NCBI GenBank assembly: GCA_024688685.1 | Contig: JAILDX010000038.1 | Location: forward strand, 62,001-126,000 | Length of the DNA: 64,000 nt | DNA from: Saccharofermentans sp. | GTDB taxonomy: Bacteria; Bacillota; Clostridia; Saccharofermentanales; Saccharofermentanaceae | Direction: 5' to 3' | In this document: positions 40,207 through 49,355 of the stretch, piece by piece | Position numbering within the stretch: position 1 is the first letter of the stretch | Layout of the letters: each line of letters begins with the position of its first letter | The notes under the pieces: generated by a model | Told to the model about the DNA's origin: nothing | The model's database searches: none | The model's input: only the letters and a program-made list of their open reading frames with translations | Made by a program: the position numbers and the translations under genes

Positions 40207-42660
40207 ATGGCATTATGCAGTATGTGTAAGCAAAGACATGCGATCGTCTTTACTACCAGATATGAGAACGGTCAGAGGATCGACGAGGGATTCTGTGTCA
40301 AATGTGCTTATAAAGCGCGCATCAGCGGCATTTCAGAGATGTTCAAGGATGCAGGCATAGATGAGAATAACATTGACGAATTATCAGACAGGATTGAAGA
40401 GACAATGGGTTCTGCTGATTTCTCAGATCCGGGAACACTTCTTTCAGGACTTCTTAACAACAATTCTCTTGATGCGCCTTATGATTTCGATGAAGACAGC
40501 ACCAATGTCGGTGTTGCGGACGAACAGGTTGACGGACCTCAGGACGGCGGAGAGATGAGCAATCCCATCGGGGATCTCTTCAGCAAGATGTTCGGTGTCG
40601 GCGGCAATAAGAACGACAAGGCTGACGAGAATGAGAAGGGCAATGCAAGAAAGGATAAGAAGCGCAACAGCTCCAGGATGAAGTACCTCAATGAGTTCGG
40701 TACAAATCTTACTGAGCGTGCAGCTCAGGGTAAGATCGACAGGATAATCGGAAGAGATGTCGAGATAGACAGATGTATCCAAATACTTAATAGAAGGACT
40801 AAGAATAATCCTGTCCTTATCGGTGCTCCCGGTGTCGGTAAGACTGCAGTTGCACAAGGACTTGCAAATAAGATAGTTGAGGGATCCGTACCCGAGAAGC
40901 TCCTGAATATGCAGGTATGGCAGCTTGATCTTCCGGCCATGGTTGCAGGAACTCAGTTCAGAGGTCAGTTTGAGGCTCGTATCAAGGGAGTTATCAATGA
41001 GGCTATAAAGGCTGAGAATATCATTCTTGTTATCGATGAACTCCATACGATAGTCGGTGCAGGCGATGCAGAAGGTTCAACTAATGCAGGTAATATCCTT
41101 AAGCCCGCACTCGCAAGGGGAGAACTTCGTATCCTCGGTTCGACAACAACAGGTGAATACAAAAAGATTGAGAAAGATTCGGCTCTTGAGAGACGTTTCC
41201 AGAAGGTCATGCTTGATGAACCGTCGCCGGAAGAGGCTTTCGAGATTCTTAAGGGTATTAAGGATTACTATGAGAAGCATCATAATGTCACATATTCTGA
41301 TGAGGTTCTCAGATTTGCGGTTACTGCATCCAAGCGTTATATAACTGACAGATTCCTTCCTGACAAGGCTATTGACCTTATCGATGAAGCAGGTTCACGC
41401 GCCAATCTTAACAACGTCAAGCTCGTAAAGCTCGCAAATACGAAAACAGCGCTTGATGAAGCCCTCGCAAATTATTCCGAGTCTGTTGAGAAGGTCAACG
41501 ATGTAAATGACAGCGAGCGTGATGCTCTTTATGAGAAGATCGCTGAACAGAAGGCTTCTGTTGACAAGCTCCAGAAGGAATACGACGCACTTAATAATGA
41601 GATCGCGCCTGATCCAATACAGATCGAAGACATCGCAAGAGTAGTAGAGATGTGGACAGGTATTCCTGTTAAGTCCATTTCTGAGAGCGAGAGTGAGAAG
41701 CTCCTGCATCTGGAAGAACGTCTGCATGAGCGCGTGATCGGACAGGAGAAAGCTGTTTCGGCTGTCGCAAAGGCTGTAAGAAGAACAAGATCCGGATTTA
41801 CCAAGAAGCATAAGCCTTCATCGTTTATCTTTGTAGGACCTACAGGTGTAGGTAAGACAGAACTTGTTAAGGCTCTTGCTGAGGTCCTCTTTGATACTGA
41901 GGATGCACTTATCAGGATCGATATGTCCGAGTATATGGAACCGCACAGTGTAAGTAAGCTTATCGGTTCTCCTCCGGGATATGTCGGACACGAGGATTCC
42001 GGCCAGCTTACAGAGCAGGTCAGAAGGAAGCCTTACTGTGTAATCCTTTTTGATGAGATAGAGAAGGCACATCATGATGTATTCAATATACTGCTGCAGC
42101 TCCTTGATGAAGGAAGACTTACTGACAGTCATGGAATACATGTTAACTTTGAGAATACGATCATTGTTATGACATCAAATGCAGGCAGCTCATCAAAGGC
42201 TCCAACCATAGGATTTACGTCAGGTTCTCAGGAGGCTCTTGAAGCTCATGTCGATACTGCTCTTAAGGAGACATTCAGACCTGAGTTCCTCAACAGAGTT
42301 GACGATACGATCATCTTCACGGAGCTCTCTACCGCTGAGATTAGAAAGATCGCCGATATCATGATGAAGGAAGTCTATGCATCTCTGAGGGAGAAGGGCA
42401 TTGAAGCATCCATGACCGAGGCATGCGGTGACAGACTGGCTGAGATAGGGTATGATAAGAAATATGGTGCAAGGCCTCTAAGAAGGGCTATCAGAACGAA
42501 TATTGAAGATAAGCTTTCTGACATGTACCTTGACGGAAGTCTTGATAAGGTTTCAAAGATCAGTATCGATTACCGTGACGGGGAATTTGTTTTTGATATC
42601 ATCCGCAATGATGTGTCGATCGTTCCGCCGGTTGTTAAGGAGCGTAAACGTAAACAGTAA
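40207..42660 (+). CDS. ATP-dependent Clp protease ATP-binding subunit, ClpE-like (N-terminal zinc finger)
   Basis: 'CSMCKQRHAIVFT...EGFCVKCAYKA', two AAA+ modules 'GAPGVGKTAVAQGLA' and 'GPTGVGKTELVKALAE'. Confidence 0.93.
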   Translation: MALCSMCKQRHAIVFTTRYENGQRIDEGFCVKCAYKARISGISEMFKDAGIDENNIDELSDRIEETMGSADFSDPGTLLSGLLNNNSLDAPYDFDEDSTNVGVADEQVDGPQDGGEMSNPIGDLFSKMFGVGGNKNDKADENEKGNARKDKKRNSSRMKYLNEFGTNLTERAAQGKIDRIIGRDVEIDRCIQILNRRTKNNPVLIGAPGVGKTAVAQGLANKIVEGSVPEKLLNMQVWQLDLPAMVAGTQFRGQFEARIKGVINEAIKAENIILVIDELHTIVGAGDAEGSTNAGNILKPALARGELRILGSTTTGEYKKIEKDSALERRFQKVMLDEPSPEEAFEILKGIKDYYEKHHNVTYSDEVLRFAVTASKRYITDRFLPDKAIDLIDEAGSRANLNNVKLVKLANTKTALDEALANYSESVEKVNDVNDSERDALYEKIAEQKASVDKLQKEYDALNNEIAPDPIQIEDIARVVEMWTGIPVKSISESESEKLLHLEERLHERVIGQEKAVSAVAKAVRRTRSGFTKKHKPSSFIFVGPTGVGKTELVKALAEVLFDTEDALIRIDMSEYMEPHSVSKLIGSPPGYVGHEDSGQLTEQVRRKPYCVILFDEIEKAHHDVFNILLQLLDEGRLTDSHGIHVNFENTIIVMTSNAGSSSKAPTIGFTSGSQEALEAHVDTALKETFRPEFLNRVDDTIIFTELSTAEIRKIADIMMKEVYASLREKGIEASMTEACGDRLAEIGYDKKYGARPLRRAIRTNIEDKLSDMYLDGSLDKVSKISIDYRDGEFVFDIIRNDVSIVPPVVKERKRKQ

Positions 42661-42669
42661 GGAGGTCTC

Positions 42670-43530
42670 ATGAAGATACTTGTTATAGGTGGTACCAGGT
42701 TTTTTGGCAAACCTATGGTCAGGGAACTTCTGTATGCGGGACACGACGTTACTGTTGCCACAAGAGGCCTCAGGACTGTTCCATATAATGGAAAACTTGA
42801 TTCTGTCATAATAGATAAGACAGATCCTTTGTCGGTATCATCTGCTTTTGCCGGCAAGTATTACGATGTCATCATCGACAAGGTTGCATATTCATCTAAT
42901 GATGTAAAGTCTCTTGTTGAGAATGCAGCGTTTGGCAGATATATCCAGATGTCTTCATGCTCTGTATATCAGACTGTTCATGCAGCTATTAAGGAAGAAG
43001 AGTTTGATGCATCCGGCTATGAACTTAAGTGGATCGACAGACCTGAGGATTATTCAGAAGGAAAGAGACAGGCTGAATGTGCAGCATTAAAACTGTTAGG
43101 CCCTGAACGGTGCCTGTTTGTCAGATATCCTGTTGTCGTCGGTGAGAATGATTATACAGGCAGACTTCAGTTTTATGTTGATCATATCATTAATGATCAG
43201 CCTATGAATGTTGATAATATCGATGCGCAGATCCCTTTCATACATGAACGTGAAGCCGGACTGTTTATAGCACATCTGGCAAGCAGCAATTATTCCGGTG
43301 CTGTCAATGGCTCAAGCCATGGAACGATTTCCCCGAGAGAACTGATCGATCATATTGAGAATACGACTCATCACAAGGCAATAATCGATGCCGGAGGAGA
43401 TCCTGCCCCGTATAACGGTATCTATGGCGTACAGTCATTCTGTACCGAGAAAGCCGGAAAGACAGGTTTTGTTTTCTCAAATGTTTATGAATGGATATAT
43501 AACCTTCTTGATTTCTACTGCTATAGCTGA
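42670..43530 (+). CDS. NAD-dependent epimerase/dehydratase-like protein (SDR fold)
   Basis: 'ILVIGGTRFFGKPMVRELL', 'GRYIQMSSCSVY', 'EGKRQAECAAL'. Confidence 0.82.
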   Translation: MKILVIGGTRFFGKPMVRELLYAGHDVTVATRGLRTVPYNGKLDSVIIDKTDPLSVSSAFAGKYYDVIIDKVAYSSNDVKSLVENAAFGRYIQMSSCSVYQTVHAAIKEEEFDASGYELKWIDRPEDYSEGKRQAECAALKLLGPERCLFVRYPVVVGENDYTGRLQFYVDHIINDQPMNVDNIDAQIPFIHEREAGLFIAHLASSNYSGAVNGSSHGTISPRELIDHIENTTHHKAIIDAGGDPAPYNGIYGVQSFCTEKAGKTGFVFSNVYEWIYNLLDFYCYS

Positions 43531-43544
43531 GAAAGGATGCCGAT

Positions 43545-44519
43545 ATGAAGAATCTTTCCTGTAAAAACTGTGGAGCCCCGATGGCTCTTGATGCTTCTGC
43601 TATGACGGCTCATTGCCGTTTCTGCGGAACACAGTATGTTCTTGATCACAAGGATACTGATTACTTTCTTGATTTCTACCGTCAGGTCAATGATCTCATC
43701 TCAGCAGAAGATGATACAAAGCGTAAAGACCTTGCTGACAGACTGTGGGATACAGCAGATGAGAAGGTGTTTACGACATCTGACGGAAGAATTGTTACAG
43801 TCTATTATCTGTATTCTTTTTCTGAACCTGAATGTGATGTTTATGTTGCCAGAAGGAATATCATCTTCCATTTCAAAAAGAACGGAGCACTGTTATCAGA
43901 CAGGTTCAGGATAAACTCTTCAATGCTTGATTATCCGTCTGCAGACACAAAGAATCTTTCAGATTTCTTCCCGAAAGTCACGGCAGGGTTTAATCTTGAT
44001 GACGGTACCGACATACTGGTCGTCGCCAAGGATGAAGACGAGTATCCTTTAAGACTGTTTGGTAAGCTTCATGGAAGACATGTTGCATGGATCATCAGCA
44101 GGATCGAGAATCTCTGCTGCGTACTTGAATATAACGGCATAGTTCATCCGCAGATCGATCCTGATACAGTGTTTATCAATCCTTATATTCATCAGGCATC
44201 CCTTTACGGAAACTGGTGGAACGTCACGAAGAACAATACTCTGTCGTCTGACAGAACGCATGTTAACACAACTGCAATGAATCTTTACGGATTACGTAAT
44301 ACCGCAGCATTCTCGCTCGGCTTTAATGATGTATCAGAGGTGACTGTAAGGGAAGACATTCCCGCACCTTTTGCCGATTTTTTGAAGAGTGCCCCTGAAG
44401 TAAACGCATACAGTGATTTCGAGAAGTGGGATAAGACGCTGATCAAGTCATTTGGCGAGAGACGTTTCTACAAATTTACGGGCGGCGAAGACGATATCTA
44501 TAAGAAAGGACAGGAGTAA
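43545..44519 (+). CDS. Zinc-ribbon protein with degenerate protein-kinase-like region
   Basis: 'CKNCGAPMALDASAMTAHCRFCG' ribbon; 'LEYNGIVHPQIDPDTVFINPYIHQASLYGN' resembles a degraded kinase catalytic loop. Confidence 0.55.
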   Translation: MKNLSCKNCGAPMALDASAMTAHCRFCGTQYVLDHKDTDYFLDFYRQVNDLISAEDDTKRKDLADRLWDTADEKVFTTSDGRIVTVYYLYSFSEPECDVYVARRNIIFHFKKNGALLSDRFRINSSMLDYPSADTKNLSDFFPKVTAGFNLDDGTDILVVAKDEDEYPLRLFGKLHGRHVAWIISRIENLCCVLEYNGIVHPQIDPDTVFINPYIHQASLYGNWWNVTKNNTLSSDRTHVNTTAMNLYGLRNTAAFSLGFNDVSEVTVREDIPAPFADFLKSAPEVNAYSDFEKWDKTLIKSFGERRFYKFTGGEDDIYKKGQE

Positions 44520-45433
44520 TGGGAAGAGGTTCTTATACCGCAGGTGACTGGGCCAGTCTAAGAAGCAGCCGTAAGCTGAATGCTGTAAGCACTGTAGAAT
44601 CCATATTCACTAACAACTGCGCAGTTTCTGCTTATGACAGCAGAAATGTTGTAATCCGTGAATCGAGAGACAGTGAAGAGCATAATTCTTCTACCCCTGT
44701 CATTATCGGATTTGATGTTACTGCTTCAATGGGTTATCTTGCGAAGACACTTGCAACTGAGACGATCAATTATTCGGTCAATCAGATAATCCACAGTTCT
44801 CTTTCCAATCCGCAGTTTCTGATCGCAGCGATCGGCGATGTAAAATGCGATAATACACCTCTTCAGGTTACACAGTTTGAATCGGATATCAGGATCAACA
44901 CGCAGCTTATGGAGCTCCACCTTGAAGGCGGAGGCGGCGGTAACGGAGGAGAATCATATAATCTCCTGTGGTGGTTTGCCGCCAAGCATACTTCGACTGA
45001 TGCATTCGAGAAGCGTGGTAAAAAGGGATTTCTGTTTACGATCGGTGATGATAACTGCCATGAAGGATTAAGTGTTGTTGAGATTGGAAAAGCTTTCCGT
45101 GATACTGTCCCGTATTCGGTGTCCAATCAGGAGCTGATCGCAATGGCAGAAGAGAAGTATCATGTCATTCACATACATATCAATAACGGAACACCTGAGA
45201 GCAGAAAGATCTTCAGGAATCTGCGGGATATTCTTCCCGGAAAAGCAACGGAGATCAACATCAATGATCTTGACTGTCTCTCATATCTGATTTCATCAAT
45301 AGTTAAGATACGTCTTGGAGCTTCTGCAGGTGACGTTATGTCAGAAATTCCGCAGGAAGCAGCCGTAAAGCTGGCAAGATCGATATCATTTGCCTTCAAC
45401 GACAACAGGTCAGGTGGCTCGTTGTTCTTTTAA
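44519..45433 (+). CDS. von Willebrand factor A-like (MIDAS) protein, paralogue 1
   Basis: 'VIIGFDVTASMGYLAKTLATETI' MIDAS-like DxTxS, 'FLFTIGDDNCHEG'; start overlaps the upstream stop (TAATG). Confidence 0.68.
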   Translation: MGRGSYTAGDWASLRSSRKLNAVSTVESIFTNNCAVSAYDSRNVVIRESRDSEEHNSSTPVIIGFDVTASMGYLAKTLATETINYSVNQIIHSSLSNPQFLIAAIGDVKCDNTPLQVTQFESDIRINTQLMELHLEGGGGGNGGESYNLLWWFAAKHTSTDAFEKRGKKGFLFTIGDDNCHEGLSVVEIGKAFRDTVPYSVSNQELIAMAEEKYHVIHIHINNGTPESRKIFRNLRDILPGKATEININDLDCLSYLISSIVKIRLGASAGDVMSEIPQEAAVKLARSISFAFNDNRSGGSLFF

Positions 45434-45486
45434 ATCATTAGTAGTATTATTTAATTGCTTGGAATCTATACTATCTGAGGTGCTCT

Positions 45487-46425
45487 ATGGGATACGGAAG
45501 TTATAAGGCATCTGACTGGGAAAGACTTAAGAACAGCAGAGGCATCAATAATTCATCAAGTGCAGCTACATTGTTTAACGGAAATGATTTCAAGGATATC
45601 TATAATCCTTTGTATATCAATTTCCGTGAATCCAGAGACAGCGAAGATTCTCCCAATTCGACACCGATTATTTTCGGGTTCGATGTAACAGGTTCAATGG
45701 ATTATCTTGCTGTTGAGATAGCTAAGAATTCTCTTAACAAGACCATTACCGAACTCTACGACAAGAAGCCCGTTACTGATCCTCACGTAATGTGTGCTGC
45801 GTTTACTGCACCGCGTTATAACGGAGATGTTATTCTGGCGGGCGCGCTTCAGGTCACTCAGTTTGAAGCCGATATCAGAGTCATTGAACAGCTTCTTGAC
45901 CTTAATGTCAAGTTTGGCGGAAACAGATACAGTTATGATGATCTTGTCTGGTATTTCGCTGCAAACCACACAGATATTGACTGCTACAATAAGAGAAAGA
46001 AAAAGGGTTACATAATCTGTATCGGTGACGAGATATGCGGTGCTGATGACGGTTCATTCCTGCGTGAGAATGATCTCCTGAAGATCTTTGGTGATAATAA
46101 GATGACAGGGCATCTCAGCAACAGGCAGATCTATGATATGGCTGCAAAGAAATACGAGATATTCCATATCGTTACTCTGATGGGATGGAGAGAGGGAAGA
46201 GCGTTTAATACCTGGAATCACTTTATGCCCGGACGGGTTGCAACGATCGGTCAGAGAGATATATCACTTCTGTCTGAGGTCATCACATCGATTATACAGC
46301 TTTCACAGGGTGCTGACAGGGAAGATGTTATAGGCCAGTGGCCGGAAGAGATCCGTTCCAAGATCAGGAAATCGGTAGAACCGATATTCCCGGATAAGCC
46401 TGTTCCTGACTGGGAAGAACCGTGA
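45487..46425 (+). CDS. von Willebrand factor A-like (MIDAS) protein, paralogue 2
   Basis: 'IIFGFDVTGSMDYLAVEIAKNSL', 'YIICIGDEICG'; colinear with paralogue 1. Confidence 0.68.
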   Translation: MGYGSYKASDWERLKNSRGINNSSSAATLFNGNDFKDIYNPLYINFRESRDSEDSPNSTPIIFGFDVTGSMDYLAVEIAKNSLNKTITELYDKKPVTDPHVMCAAFTAPRYNGDVILAGALQVTQFEADIRVIEQLLDLNVKFGGNRYSYDDLVWYFAANHTDIDCYNKRKKKGYIICIGDEICGADDGSFLRENDLLKIFGDNKMTGHLSNRQIYDMAAKKYEIFHIVTLMGWREGRAFNTWNHFMPGRVATIGQRDISLLSEVITSIIQLSQGADREDVIGQWPEEIRSKIRKSVEPIFPDKPVPDWEEP

Positions 46426-47567
46426 GTATTAAGATTGTTATCGGGAAAAACTTCGGCGACGAGGGGAAAGGCCTCGCCGTCGATTATTTTTCCGCTGTTT
46501 CAGAAAAAGCCGGCAGGACATGCCTTGTAATAAGGCATAATGGTGGTGCACAGGCAGGCCATACGGTAGATCTTAAGGATAAAAGATTTGTATTCAGCCA
46601 GTTATCTTCCGGATCATTCCGCCATGCGGACACGTATCTTGCTGATTCATTCCTTTTTGATCCGTATGCATTAAAGACAGAGACGAACGGATTTGCGTGC
46701 ATAAACAGATCATTTCCGAAGATGACTGCAAGTGGAAATATCAGGTGTGTTACAGTTCTTGATGTCCTGCTGAATCAGGCGCTTGAGGATCTTCGCGGCA
46801 CTGAACGTCACGGGTCGTGCGGTATGGGGATAGATGAGACTGTTCGCCGTTCTGCCACTACGTTCAGACTTCCGCTTAATAAGGTTAAATACGGCACTGC
46901 GGAAGAGATCTTTGATTTCCTTAAAGGTATAAGGGCAGAGTATCTTCCTTCAAGACTTGAAGAGCTTAACCTGTCTATCCACGACCTTGGCAAATACAGG
47001 GACCTGATAAATAACGACATCATACTCCGCAACTGGGCTGAAGCAGCCGTTGATCAGTGCTGGATGGTTGAACTTGTGGATCCGTATTATATTACGCGAT
47101 ATGACGACATCATATTTGAAGGTGCACAGGGTCTTCTGCTTGATAATGAGAATAAAGAATATGCTCCTCATCTGACGACTTCAAGAACAGGTCTTACAAA
47201 TCCCGTCAGGATAATAAGAGATGTAATGACTGCGAAAGAGACTGAAGCTGAAGCAGTCTATGTCACAAGATCATATGTAACTCGTCACGGCAACGGTCCG
47301 CTTCCTAACGAGGCTTCTTTTACATTTCCCGATGAGACAAATGTCCCGAATGAATGGCAGGGAAGTCTGAGATTTGCTCATCATGGAAGCATGGATGAGT
47401 TTCTGATGCCTGTTCAGAGGGATATTGATACTGTATACTTTAAAGGATCACACTCATTCTTTATTACCCATCTCAACGAAATGGATCTGCCGTTCAAAGA
47501 GGAATTGAAGACTCCGCTTTATCTGTCCTGTGATAAGTATTCAGATAATATCAGATACCAAAAGTAA
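46422..47567 (+). CDS. Divergent adenylosuccinate synthetase (PurA)-family protein
   Basis: 381 aa, GTG start; 'VIGKNFGDEGKGLAVDYFS', 'HNGGAQAGHTV', 'DIIFEGAQGLLLDNENKEYAPHLTTSRTG'. Confidence 0.85.
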   Translation: MSIKIVIGKNFGDEGKGLAVDYFSAVSEKAGRTCLVIRHNGGAQAGHTVDLKDKRFVFSQLSSGSFRHADTYLADSFLFDPYALKTETNGFACINRSFPKMTASGNIRCVTVLDVLLNQALEDLRGTERHGSCGMGIDETVRRSATTFRLPLNKVKYGTAEEIFDFLKGIRAEYLPSRLEELNLSIHDLGKYRDLINNDIILRNWAEAAVDQCWMVELVDPYYITRYDDIIFEGAQGLLLDNENKEYAPHLTTSRTGLTNPVRIIRDVMTAKETEAEAVYVTRSYVTRHGNGPLPNEASFTFPDETNVPNEWQGSLRFAHHGSMDEFLMPVQRDIDTVYFKGSHSFFITHLNEMDLPFKEELKTPLYLSCDKYSDNIRYQK

Positions 47568-48372
47568 CCGGCTGCCTTTTCTCAAAATAACAGAGCTCTG
47601 TTACACCGATAGCCCTGAGATATTCATACATATCATCGAAATATATCCCGAGTGTATCAGGGGTGTGTGAATCAGATCCCAGAGAAATGAGTTCTCCGCC
47701 CATAGCCAGGTATCTCTCGATTATCTTTCTGTCAGGCATGATTATTGAAGACCCTTTCATGTATGCCTTATAAACCGATCTGGTATTGATCTCGAGACAC
47801 TTGTTTTTGGATATCAGGGCTTCAAAGAAACGGTCAAATGCTTTTGGACAGTCATCATAAAGAAGATATTCTTCTTTATCAGTGTTGTATCTGTTTATGT
47901 AATCAAAATGAGCGGCAACATCATATCCTGAACATTTCTCACACATCTCCGCCATTACATTGATGTATTCATTATGGCGTTCGATCTTGGAAGTGTCTTT
48001 ATAATGATCACCGAGAAAATACACATCTCTGCCCCGGAAAAGATGATTGCTTAAAATAACGATGTCAAAGTCATTGCTCTTTGCGATCCTGTCGATCACA
48101 GGAACTATATGTGACTGATATCCGAACTCTATGCCCTTGAGCAGCTTAAGCGGGGGAGGACATGATCTTTTCCATTCTTCGAATCTGAGGTTATATTCAT
48201 CGATATCAAATGTCTGAACAGTATCCTCAGGATCGGGATTGTCATACTCGTAATGTTCAGTTATGCCTGCAACATCTATACCGTTTGCTATAGCGGCATT
48301 AATGAGCTCATCCGGTGTCATTTTTGCATCAGGAGAGAAGTGACATGTATGATTGTGAATATCCGCTCTCAT
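47551..48372 (-). CDS. PHP-domain phosphoesterase (histidinol-phosphatase-like)
   Basis: 'MRADIHNHTCHFSPDAKMTPDELINAAIANGIDVAGITEH', 'LISLGSDSHTPDTLG'. Confidence 0.85.
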   Translation of the reverse strand: MRADIHNHTCHFSPDAKMTPDELINAAIANGIDVAGITEHYEYDNPDPEDTVQTFDIDEYNLRFEEWKRSCPPPLKLLKGIEFGYQSHIVPVIDRIAKSNDFDIVILSNHLFRGRDVYFLGDHYKDTSKIERHNEYINVMAEMCEKCSGYDVAAHFDYINRYNTDKEEYLLYDDCPKAFDRFFEALISKNKCLEINTRSVYKAYMKGSSIIMPDRKIIERYLAMGGELISLGSDSHTPDTLGIYFDDMYEYLRAIGVTELCYFEKRQPVTFGI

Positions 48373-48374
48373 GA

Positions 48375-49355
48375 TCAGCCTTTATTTACCAGAAATGCTA
48401 TCAGAATGAATACGATATCGAGCACGAGGCCAAAGAAGAATATCGTGAGCATAGTCTTTGGTACGGAAAAGCCTTTATTCTTCTTAAGATGATCATGCAC
48501 AGGTGTTGTGAGCCACTTCATAATGATGATCTTTCTCCTGGTAAGCCTTCCGATGGTGATCTTCAGGATGGACAAACCTCCGTCGATGATGAAGGGGAGA
48601 CCAAAGACAAGATAAACAAACGGCATCTTTACATACATGGCATAAAGTGCGATCAGCAATCCTAAAGCTCTTGATCCGGCATCTCCCATGAGCATCTTGC
48701 TCGGATAATGATTGAAGATGAGATATGCGAACAAAGCGCCGATAACAGCTTCACATATAATAAAGCTTTGTGTTGTTATTGTTCCGCGCATAATTGAAAG
48801 CGCATGGAATGCCAGTATTGTGATTACCGTAAGGCTTCCGGAAAGACCGTCAACTCCGTCAGTTGCGTTTGTTGAGTTAATTGATACACCGATCAGGATT
48901 ACTGCAAGGATAAAGTAAACTGCTTTGGGAATCGTTACTGCAGTTCCTGTAACACCGATGATAACTTCGCCGGACATCATAAATGTGGCTATATAAGCGC
49001 CTGCAAGAGCAACAAGGAAATCAAGTCCGCCTTTGACATATTCGTTCCACGGTGTTTTTGCCCTGTCATCGAGGAACCCTGTGATCATGGCGATGAGGAC
49101 TAGTGCCATGGAACTGACGATGGCTATGTCGTTATAGCAGAAACCGATTACTACACCTGCAAAAACGATCACGAAATAGAAACCGACACCTGTGGGCTTT
49201 CCTACGTTGACTTCGCTTCCGACTGCAAACTTACGACCTCTGTCAGCTCCGAGGAGCGCCTTGCCGAATGGGAGAAACATCAATAATATAAAGGTCGCTG
49301 CAAATGCTATCAGACATGGAGAAATATTGATCAATAATGTCAAAAATCCGTTCAT
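48375..49355 (-). CDS. mraY: Phospho-N-acetylmuramoyl-pentapeptide-transferase family protein
   Basis: Multi-TM; 'NSTNATDGVDGLSGSL', 'LMGDAGSRALG', 'TPVHDHLKKNKG'. Confidence 0.85.
   Translation of the reverse strand: MNGFLTLLINISPCLIAFAATFILLMFLPFGKALLGADRGRKFAVGSEVNVGKPTGVGFYFVIVFAGVVIGFCYNDIAIVSSMALVLIAMITGFLDDRAKTPWNEYVKGGLDFLVALAGAYIATFMMSGEVIIGVTGTAVTIPKAVYFILAVILIGVSINSTNATDGVDGLSGSLTVITILAFHALSIMRGTITTQSFIICEAVIGALFAYLIFNHYPSKMLMGDAGSRALGLLIALYAMYVKMPFVYLVFGLPFIIDGGLSILKITIGRLTRRKIIIMKWLTTPVHDHLKKNKGFSVPKTMLTIFFFGLVLDIVFILIAFLVNKG

Follow-up and report, generated by a model that had tools for sequence, protein, structure and literature searches.

The window analysed here, a stretch of 64,000 nucleotides from Saccharofermentans sp. 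(NCBI GenBank assembly GCA_024688685.1, contig JAILDX010000038.1, positions 62,001 to 126,000 of the forward strand), carries a plus-strand cassette encoding a zinc-ribbon pseudokinase (Z), two vWA proteins (V1 and V2, of family V) and a divergent PurA-family enzyme (P), and belongs to a Z-V-P system that is real, widely conserved and apparently undescribed. An earlier reading of these letters (the original prediction) had proposed four plus-strand genes with coupled junctions; all four open reading frames were found at the positions it gave, and both overlaps were present, TAATG at 44519 and GTGA at 46422, while the spacing between the two vWA genes measured 53 bp instead of 54, and that after the preceding short-chain dehydrogenase/reductase (SDR) gene 14 bp instead of 15. 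The genes and their motifs are as follows.

43545..44519, plus strand: Z, zinc-ribbon pseudokinase, 324 aa (homologue alignment, n = 54; AlphaFold; Foldseek; motif tally)
43560..43625, plus strand: zinc ribbon CxxC...CxxC of Z (Cys6, 9, 24, 27; invariant Cys columns)
44519..45433, plus strand: V1, vWA protein, 304 aa, phrog_2971-like (phrog_2971 at 2.8e-36; model; Foldseek vWA/integrin I-like)
44714..44728, plus strand: metal ion-dependent adhesion site (MIDAS) motif of V1, D66-V-T68-A-S70 (homologue residue counts)
45487..46425, plus strand: V2, second vWA protein and V1 paralogue, 312 aa (37% identity to V1)
45682..45696, plus strand: MIDAS motif of V2, D66-V-T68-G-S70 (homologue residue counts)
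46422..47567, plus strand: P, divergent PurA-family enzyme, 381 aa, GTG start (PF00709 at 2e-31; phrog_1211 at 7e-47)
46455..46472, plus strand: P-loop GDEGKG of P with catalytic Asp13 and Lys16 (homologue residue counts)

Scanning GTDB genomes with a V profile, we found 353 relatives and read the best 80 loci, the phyletic range being a lower bound; nearly all came from Clostridia, many from ruminant gut samples. Z-V-P was complete in 72 of these 80 loci, and in the other eight the contig breaks off where the missing gene would lie. The three genes were contiguous in every one of the 72 loci unaffected by contig ends, which supports the conserved cassette originally proposed and argues that the grouping is not due to chance. 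Searched with the three family profiles, bacterial loci showed the order Z-V-P with one, two or three copies of V, and V2 was present in only part of the Clostridial loci (V-V as against single-V arrangements). The core unit has a single copy of each family, V2 being an extra one; the claim of two vWA proteins thus holds for the fold, as judged by structure, and fails for a two-copy core. No recurrent fifth gene was found among the bacterial loci, and their flanks mostly differed from one another. V occurred in 18 of 50 genomes of the window's genus, the window genome included, a patchy presence that we count in favour of the interpretation proposed below. A class-wide sample of 293 genomes gave a strong V in seven and a strong Z in the same seven plus one more (G311), and a phylum-wide sample of 399 gave V in the window genome only. 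Z, V and P are co-inherited, their distance matrices correlating strongly (Mantel r 0.66-0.83, p 0.001).

The same families are linked in phages and plasmids. Annotated phage records matched V in 207 cases and P in 226, with V/P counts by host of 188/189 for Mycobacterium, 10/10 for Rhizobium and 6/6 for Vibrio, and V and P lay side by side; bacterial purA accounts for part of the surplus in P records, including the one Acinetobacter record opened. The Bxz1-group phage Pleione has the order kinase gp265, V gp266, a small gene and P gp268, and gp265 was linked to Z by profile comparison (1.5e-6). Within IMG/VR, V-centred loci holding both V and P had them on one strand in 77 of 77 cases, with a median gap of 4 bp; P-centred loci held V in 74 of 79, and Z-centred loci held V in 17 of 17 and P in 16 of 17, the exception being cut. 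J-domain Z, V and P also occur together on plasmids of Allorhizobium/Agrobacterium, Acetobacter, Rhizobium leguminosarum, Rhodococcus and Tsukamurella, and partial sets in Rhodovulum (Z and V), Methylorubrum (V and P) and Variovorax (V and P with a weakly matching Z). Directly upstream of V, many phages carry a Met/Gly-rich protein family, here called M (L022:6222-6935, L023:5738-6529, L130:5252-5983 and 12 more viral loci). Z and M are each common in these viral sets, yet no locus had both, a pattern suggesting that M takes the place of Z.

No Pfam VWA model matched V1, and neither V1 nor V2 had a TerY or VWA match in Pfam. The structural model of V1 (pLDDT 91) matched in Foldseek the vWA domains of integrin beta-I, TFIIH p34 and Ku80, and across V homologues the MIDAS residues are almost fixed (D66 in 217/217, T68 and S70 each in 216/217); V is thus predicted to be a vWA fold with an intact MIDAS of the form DxTxS. 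One homologue (L028:4246-5160, genome G031) has a ruined MIDAS (DVTGGN) and stands without Z or P, downstream of a clpC 96% identical to the window clpC and beside choline-binding and helix-turn-helix (HTH) genes; this solo V is probably a cassette remnant at the window's chromosomal site.

The AlphaFold model of Z (pLDDT 91) retrieved protein kinases and pseudokinases in Foldseek, with probability 1.00 to many kinases and a best E of 2e-7, and with the pseudokinases ROP2, ROP5 and STK40 among the matches, so that Z is predicted to have a protein kinase fold. Among 82 bacterial and 36 viral-type Z proteins, the Asp at the DFG position is kept in at most 5 and in 1, respectively, and that of the HRD motif in 16 and 8. 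The kinase likeness originally proposed is therefore one of fold, nearly all members being pseudokinases by motif tally. The zinc ribbon proposed with it stood, as its four cysteines (Cys6/9/24/27) are unchanged across 11 homologues. By the same tally, 74 bacterial Z proteins have an N-terminal CxxC..CxxC ribbon, 31 of the 36 viral-type ones carry the HPD motif of a J-domain, and Pfam DnaJ matched 20 of 54 family members; in phage and plasmid Z, a J-domain stands where Clostridial Z has its zinc ribbon. Two further Z-related genes were seen: a lone chromosomal J-domain pseudokinase in G311 (L196:6067-7104), without V or P and lying between RNase J and glycogen-debranching genes, and a second, weakly Z-like zinc-ribbon protein in genome G107 (L201:9093-10244, E 1e-4), upstream of the cassette and adjoining a P-type ATPase gene.

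P is, as originally claimed, a divergent PurA homologue by its PF00709 match. It is not the sole housekeeping purA, the outcome of a test set in advance: a full-length purA on another contig of the same genome matches PF00709 at 1.3e-160, against 2e-31 for P. Scored with the purA equivalog models NF002223 and TIGR00184, P reached 93.2 bits against a curated cut-off of 402 and 69.8 bits against 395.55, and its family forms a clade of its own apart from two PurA outgroup rows. The catalytic residues are nevertheless retained (D13 in 158/158 sequences, K16 in 159/159), and the equivalents of H41 and Q224 are invariant. The HMMER alignment, which is uncertain in this stretch, sets the PurA segment N.YGATTGRSRRTGWLD against N.nefQGsl.Rfapld of P, so pairing the canonical loop GATTGRxRR with N.fQG..R in the P family; on this alignment the threonines of the aspartate loop and Arg303 are lost and only an R305-like Arg is retained. 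Asn307, Gln313 and Arg317 are new near-invariant residues, and these losses and gains point to an altered amine site. The C-terminal region is replaced relative to PurA. Of the GTP/IMP/Asp-type ligase originally envisaged, the purine-activating half thus persists in invariant residues and the aspartate loop appears to have been replaced. In public phage records such as NC_023737.1, OR413349.1 and NC_070967.1, P is labelled '2-aminooxy adenylosuccinate synthetase', apparently via PHROG 1211.

In a P tree rooted on two PurA sequences, the 32 Clostridial rows formed one clade with support of 100 inside the viral rows, and Desulfosporosinus P grouped with viruses. Since the Clostridial clade is nested among viral sequences, the cassette is probably of phage origin, one lineage having been taken over by Clostridia. 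The direction from phage to Clostridia is likely, not proved, because the tree is of a quick type with long branches and its Clostridial rows were drawn from the best-80 set; it contained no PurZ sequences. This origin, the J-domain/zinc-ribbon exchange and the regulator described next had been missed in the original prediction.

Outside the main Clostridial clade, 8 of 10 loci (L307-L312 and L315 on megaplasmids, and Desulfosporosinus L114) have an NrtR-type Nudix gene next to the cassette, divergent in Alphaproteobacteria and in the same direction in Actinobacteria and Desulfosporosinus. The NCBIfam ADPR-responsive repressor model NF050029 matched two of these proteins at 1e-39 and 5e-49, below its curated equivalog cut-off, and two weakly. 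NrtR proteins sense ADP-ribose, according to work cited in PMC9503650, and section 3.8 of that paper describes ARG-centred ADP-ribose conflict systems that include Nudix-HTH regulators and vWA chaperones. In its plasmid copies the cassette resembles them by combining an NrtR-like regulator and a vWA protein at one locus, and it differs in that a PurA-like enzyme and a J-domain pseudokinase are found where ARG, phosphatase and ARPP were not seen, and in that the regulator is absent from the Clostridial copies examined. No ARG gene was present among the annotated neighbours of the plasmid cassettes, unannotated loci not having been scanned for it.

Taken together, linkage, co-inheritance, folds, catalytic residues, viral nesting and the NrtR-like adjacency lead us to propose, tentatively and at slightly less than an even chance, that the cassette encodes a scaffolded purine-nucleotide ligase of phage origin that acts when NAD and purine pools are disturbed in phage-host conflict; the chemistry of P, the formation of a complex and the physiological role are what we infer. 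P would use GTP to phosphorylate a purine nucleotide, either IMP or an inosine-type relative of it, on its 6-oxo group, and would then join the activated purine to an amine that may be other than L-aspartate. A scaffold that positions or gates P or the target of P would be formed by V, acting with its metal-dependent MIDAS site, and by Z, acting with its dead kinase fold. Z would contribute either a zinc ribbon, in Clostridia, or an Hsp70-recruiting J-domain, in phages and plasmids, with Hsp70 help in phages. The role might be the repair or diversion of purine or NAD-derived nucleotides while NAD+ is being consumed. A more specific version seems to us rather unlikely in all its parts: a phage-derived, ADP-ribose-induced conflict system whose vWA-pseudokinase scaffold directs a PurA-family ligase to a novel substrate, an amine or a macromolecule (inosine-type or NAD/ADP-ribose-derived nucleotides being examples), and which gut Clostridia domesticated with exchange of the J-domain for a zinc ribbon.

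Several observations weigh against this proposal. Fusions among Z, V and P were not found in the bacterial or viral loci. In about 40% of the V-centred viral loci neither Z nor M was detected, so that Z cannot be required in every case. Among 101 flanking proteins scanned with PADLOC and Pfam, no defence or mobile family recurred at the Clostridial loci, and we rejected a defence-island setting for them. The changed amine site of P is deduced from an alignment. Four of the eight positive loci supplied the NrtR search profile with which the other four were found, and two of the ten loci lack the gene; a profile search gave no NrtR-like gene at loci of the Clostridial clade, so that the NAD link rests on other lineages. 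On the side of the NAD link, NadV was found within about 6 kb of V in 10 and NadM in 9 of 80 V-centred viral loci. NadV occurs in 22-33% of medium and jumbo phages (PMC9503650), from which about 2 of 80 would be expected by position alone, a rough estimate uncorrected for relatedness; this excess is only suggestive because both genes are common in large phages.

An alternative that we regard as possible, if doubtful, is that P is an ordinary extra PurA making adenylosuccinate for AMP/dAMP supply in infection, with V and Z merely stabilising or regulating it. Nucleotide-supply genes are frequent in large phages, which we count for this alternative, and P shares with canonical PurA its fold (by homology), the P-loop GDEGKG and the His41 and Gln224 equivalents; no residue of the IMP-phosphorylation half varies, and the best PDB and NCBIfam matches of P are canonical PurA. 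However, P scores only 93 bits where the purA equivalog model sets its cut-off at 402, its aspartate loop appears to be replaced, its C-terminal region is replaced, it counts 381 aa against about 429 in the PurA of the same genome, it forms a separate clade and is not housekeeping, the host has its own purA, and the dedicated vWA and pseudokinase partners would be left unexplained.

It is improbable that P is instead a nucleotide sensor, with a V-Z signalling or chaperone complex that changes state when P binds GTP or a purine nucleotide: the constant partners of P are indeed two proteins of binding type, and the unit holds no further enzyme, but the Asp13 and His41 equivalents, needless in a pure sensor, are strictly conserved. 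Quite improbable, too, is a chaperone or virion-assembly module in which J-domain Z recruits Hsp70, V binds client peptides and P is regulatory. The HPD-bearing J-domains of viral-type Z would suit it, and phage vWA co-chaperones have been described (PMC7824862), with MoxR-vWA phage assembly pairs as the model; yet the Clostridial and plasmid copies are not among phage structural genes, Clostridial Z has no J-domain, and P is more constant than Z.

The original prediction had compared the cassette with TerY-P modules, in which a TerY vWA protein is accompanied by PP2C and a Ser/Thr kinase fused to a zinc ribbon (PMC11090510). A vWA protein, a kinase fold and a zinc ribbon are encoded together in one operon here as well, and vWA duplication is known from CoCoNuT-linked loci (PMC11090510). 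A TerY-P-type metal-sensing phosphorylation switch is nevertheless very improbable, and we rejected membership, because two defining features are missing, PP2C (absent from the four cassette genes and from recurrent neighbours) and, by residue tally, an active kinase. Moreover, the ribbon is N-terminal and swapped for a J-domain, whereas that of the TerY-P kinase is C-terminal, V has no TerY-type Pfam match, and the constant partner is a PurA-family enzyme. Finally, it is scarcely credible that P is a PurZ-like enzyme for diaminopurine (Z) DNA, an identity that the automatic phage label and a weak PurZ match (8e-8) might suggest. Like PurZ, P is a PurA-family enzyme carried by phages, and PHROG 1211 groups it under a PurZ-type name. 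We rejected the identity, since P keeps Asp13 in 158 of 158 sequences against Ser in 100% of phage PurZ (PMC12884076; PurZ/PurZ0 criterion, Ser or Gly), matches PurZ models far more weakly than PurA models, and has vWA and pseudokinase partners, not datZ, mazZ or dutZ.

None of the four proteins matched a PADLOC-DB 2.0.0 family, even with E values of up to 1 allowed, and no description of the cassette was found in the open-licence full texts searched; consistently with the original impression of an unrecognised arrangement, no catalogued family set fits. Cassette GC (0.43-0.445) is similar to that of the flanks, and recent transfer, as judged by composition, was rejected on that ground. The SDR gene upstream was ruled out as a cassette member, its homologues in relatives sitting elsewhere. 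Flanks resembling window positions 40207-43530 and 47551-49355 were seen in two near relatives (L036 and L037), with ClpC-sized and SDR genes upstream and PHP and MraY-type genes downstream; size-matched recurrence occurred only there.

The carriers of this cassette include Bxz1-group mycobacteriophages, other large phages, megaplasmids of soil bacteria and rumen or gut bacteria. Should the genes be linked for functional reasons, one module has drawn in a central purine enzyme family along with two protein-binding folds, and hundreds of proteins now labelled 'hypothetical protein' or, doubtfully, '2-aminooxy adenylosuccinate synthetase' become one testable system, for which Bxz1-group phages on M. 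smegmatis are tractable material. If the NrtR-like link holds, the cassette would point to an unknown branch of NAD/ADP-ribose conflict biology. It may help cells or viruses to withstand attacks aimed at their pools of nucleotides and NAD.

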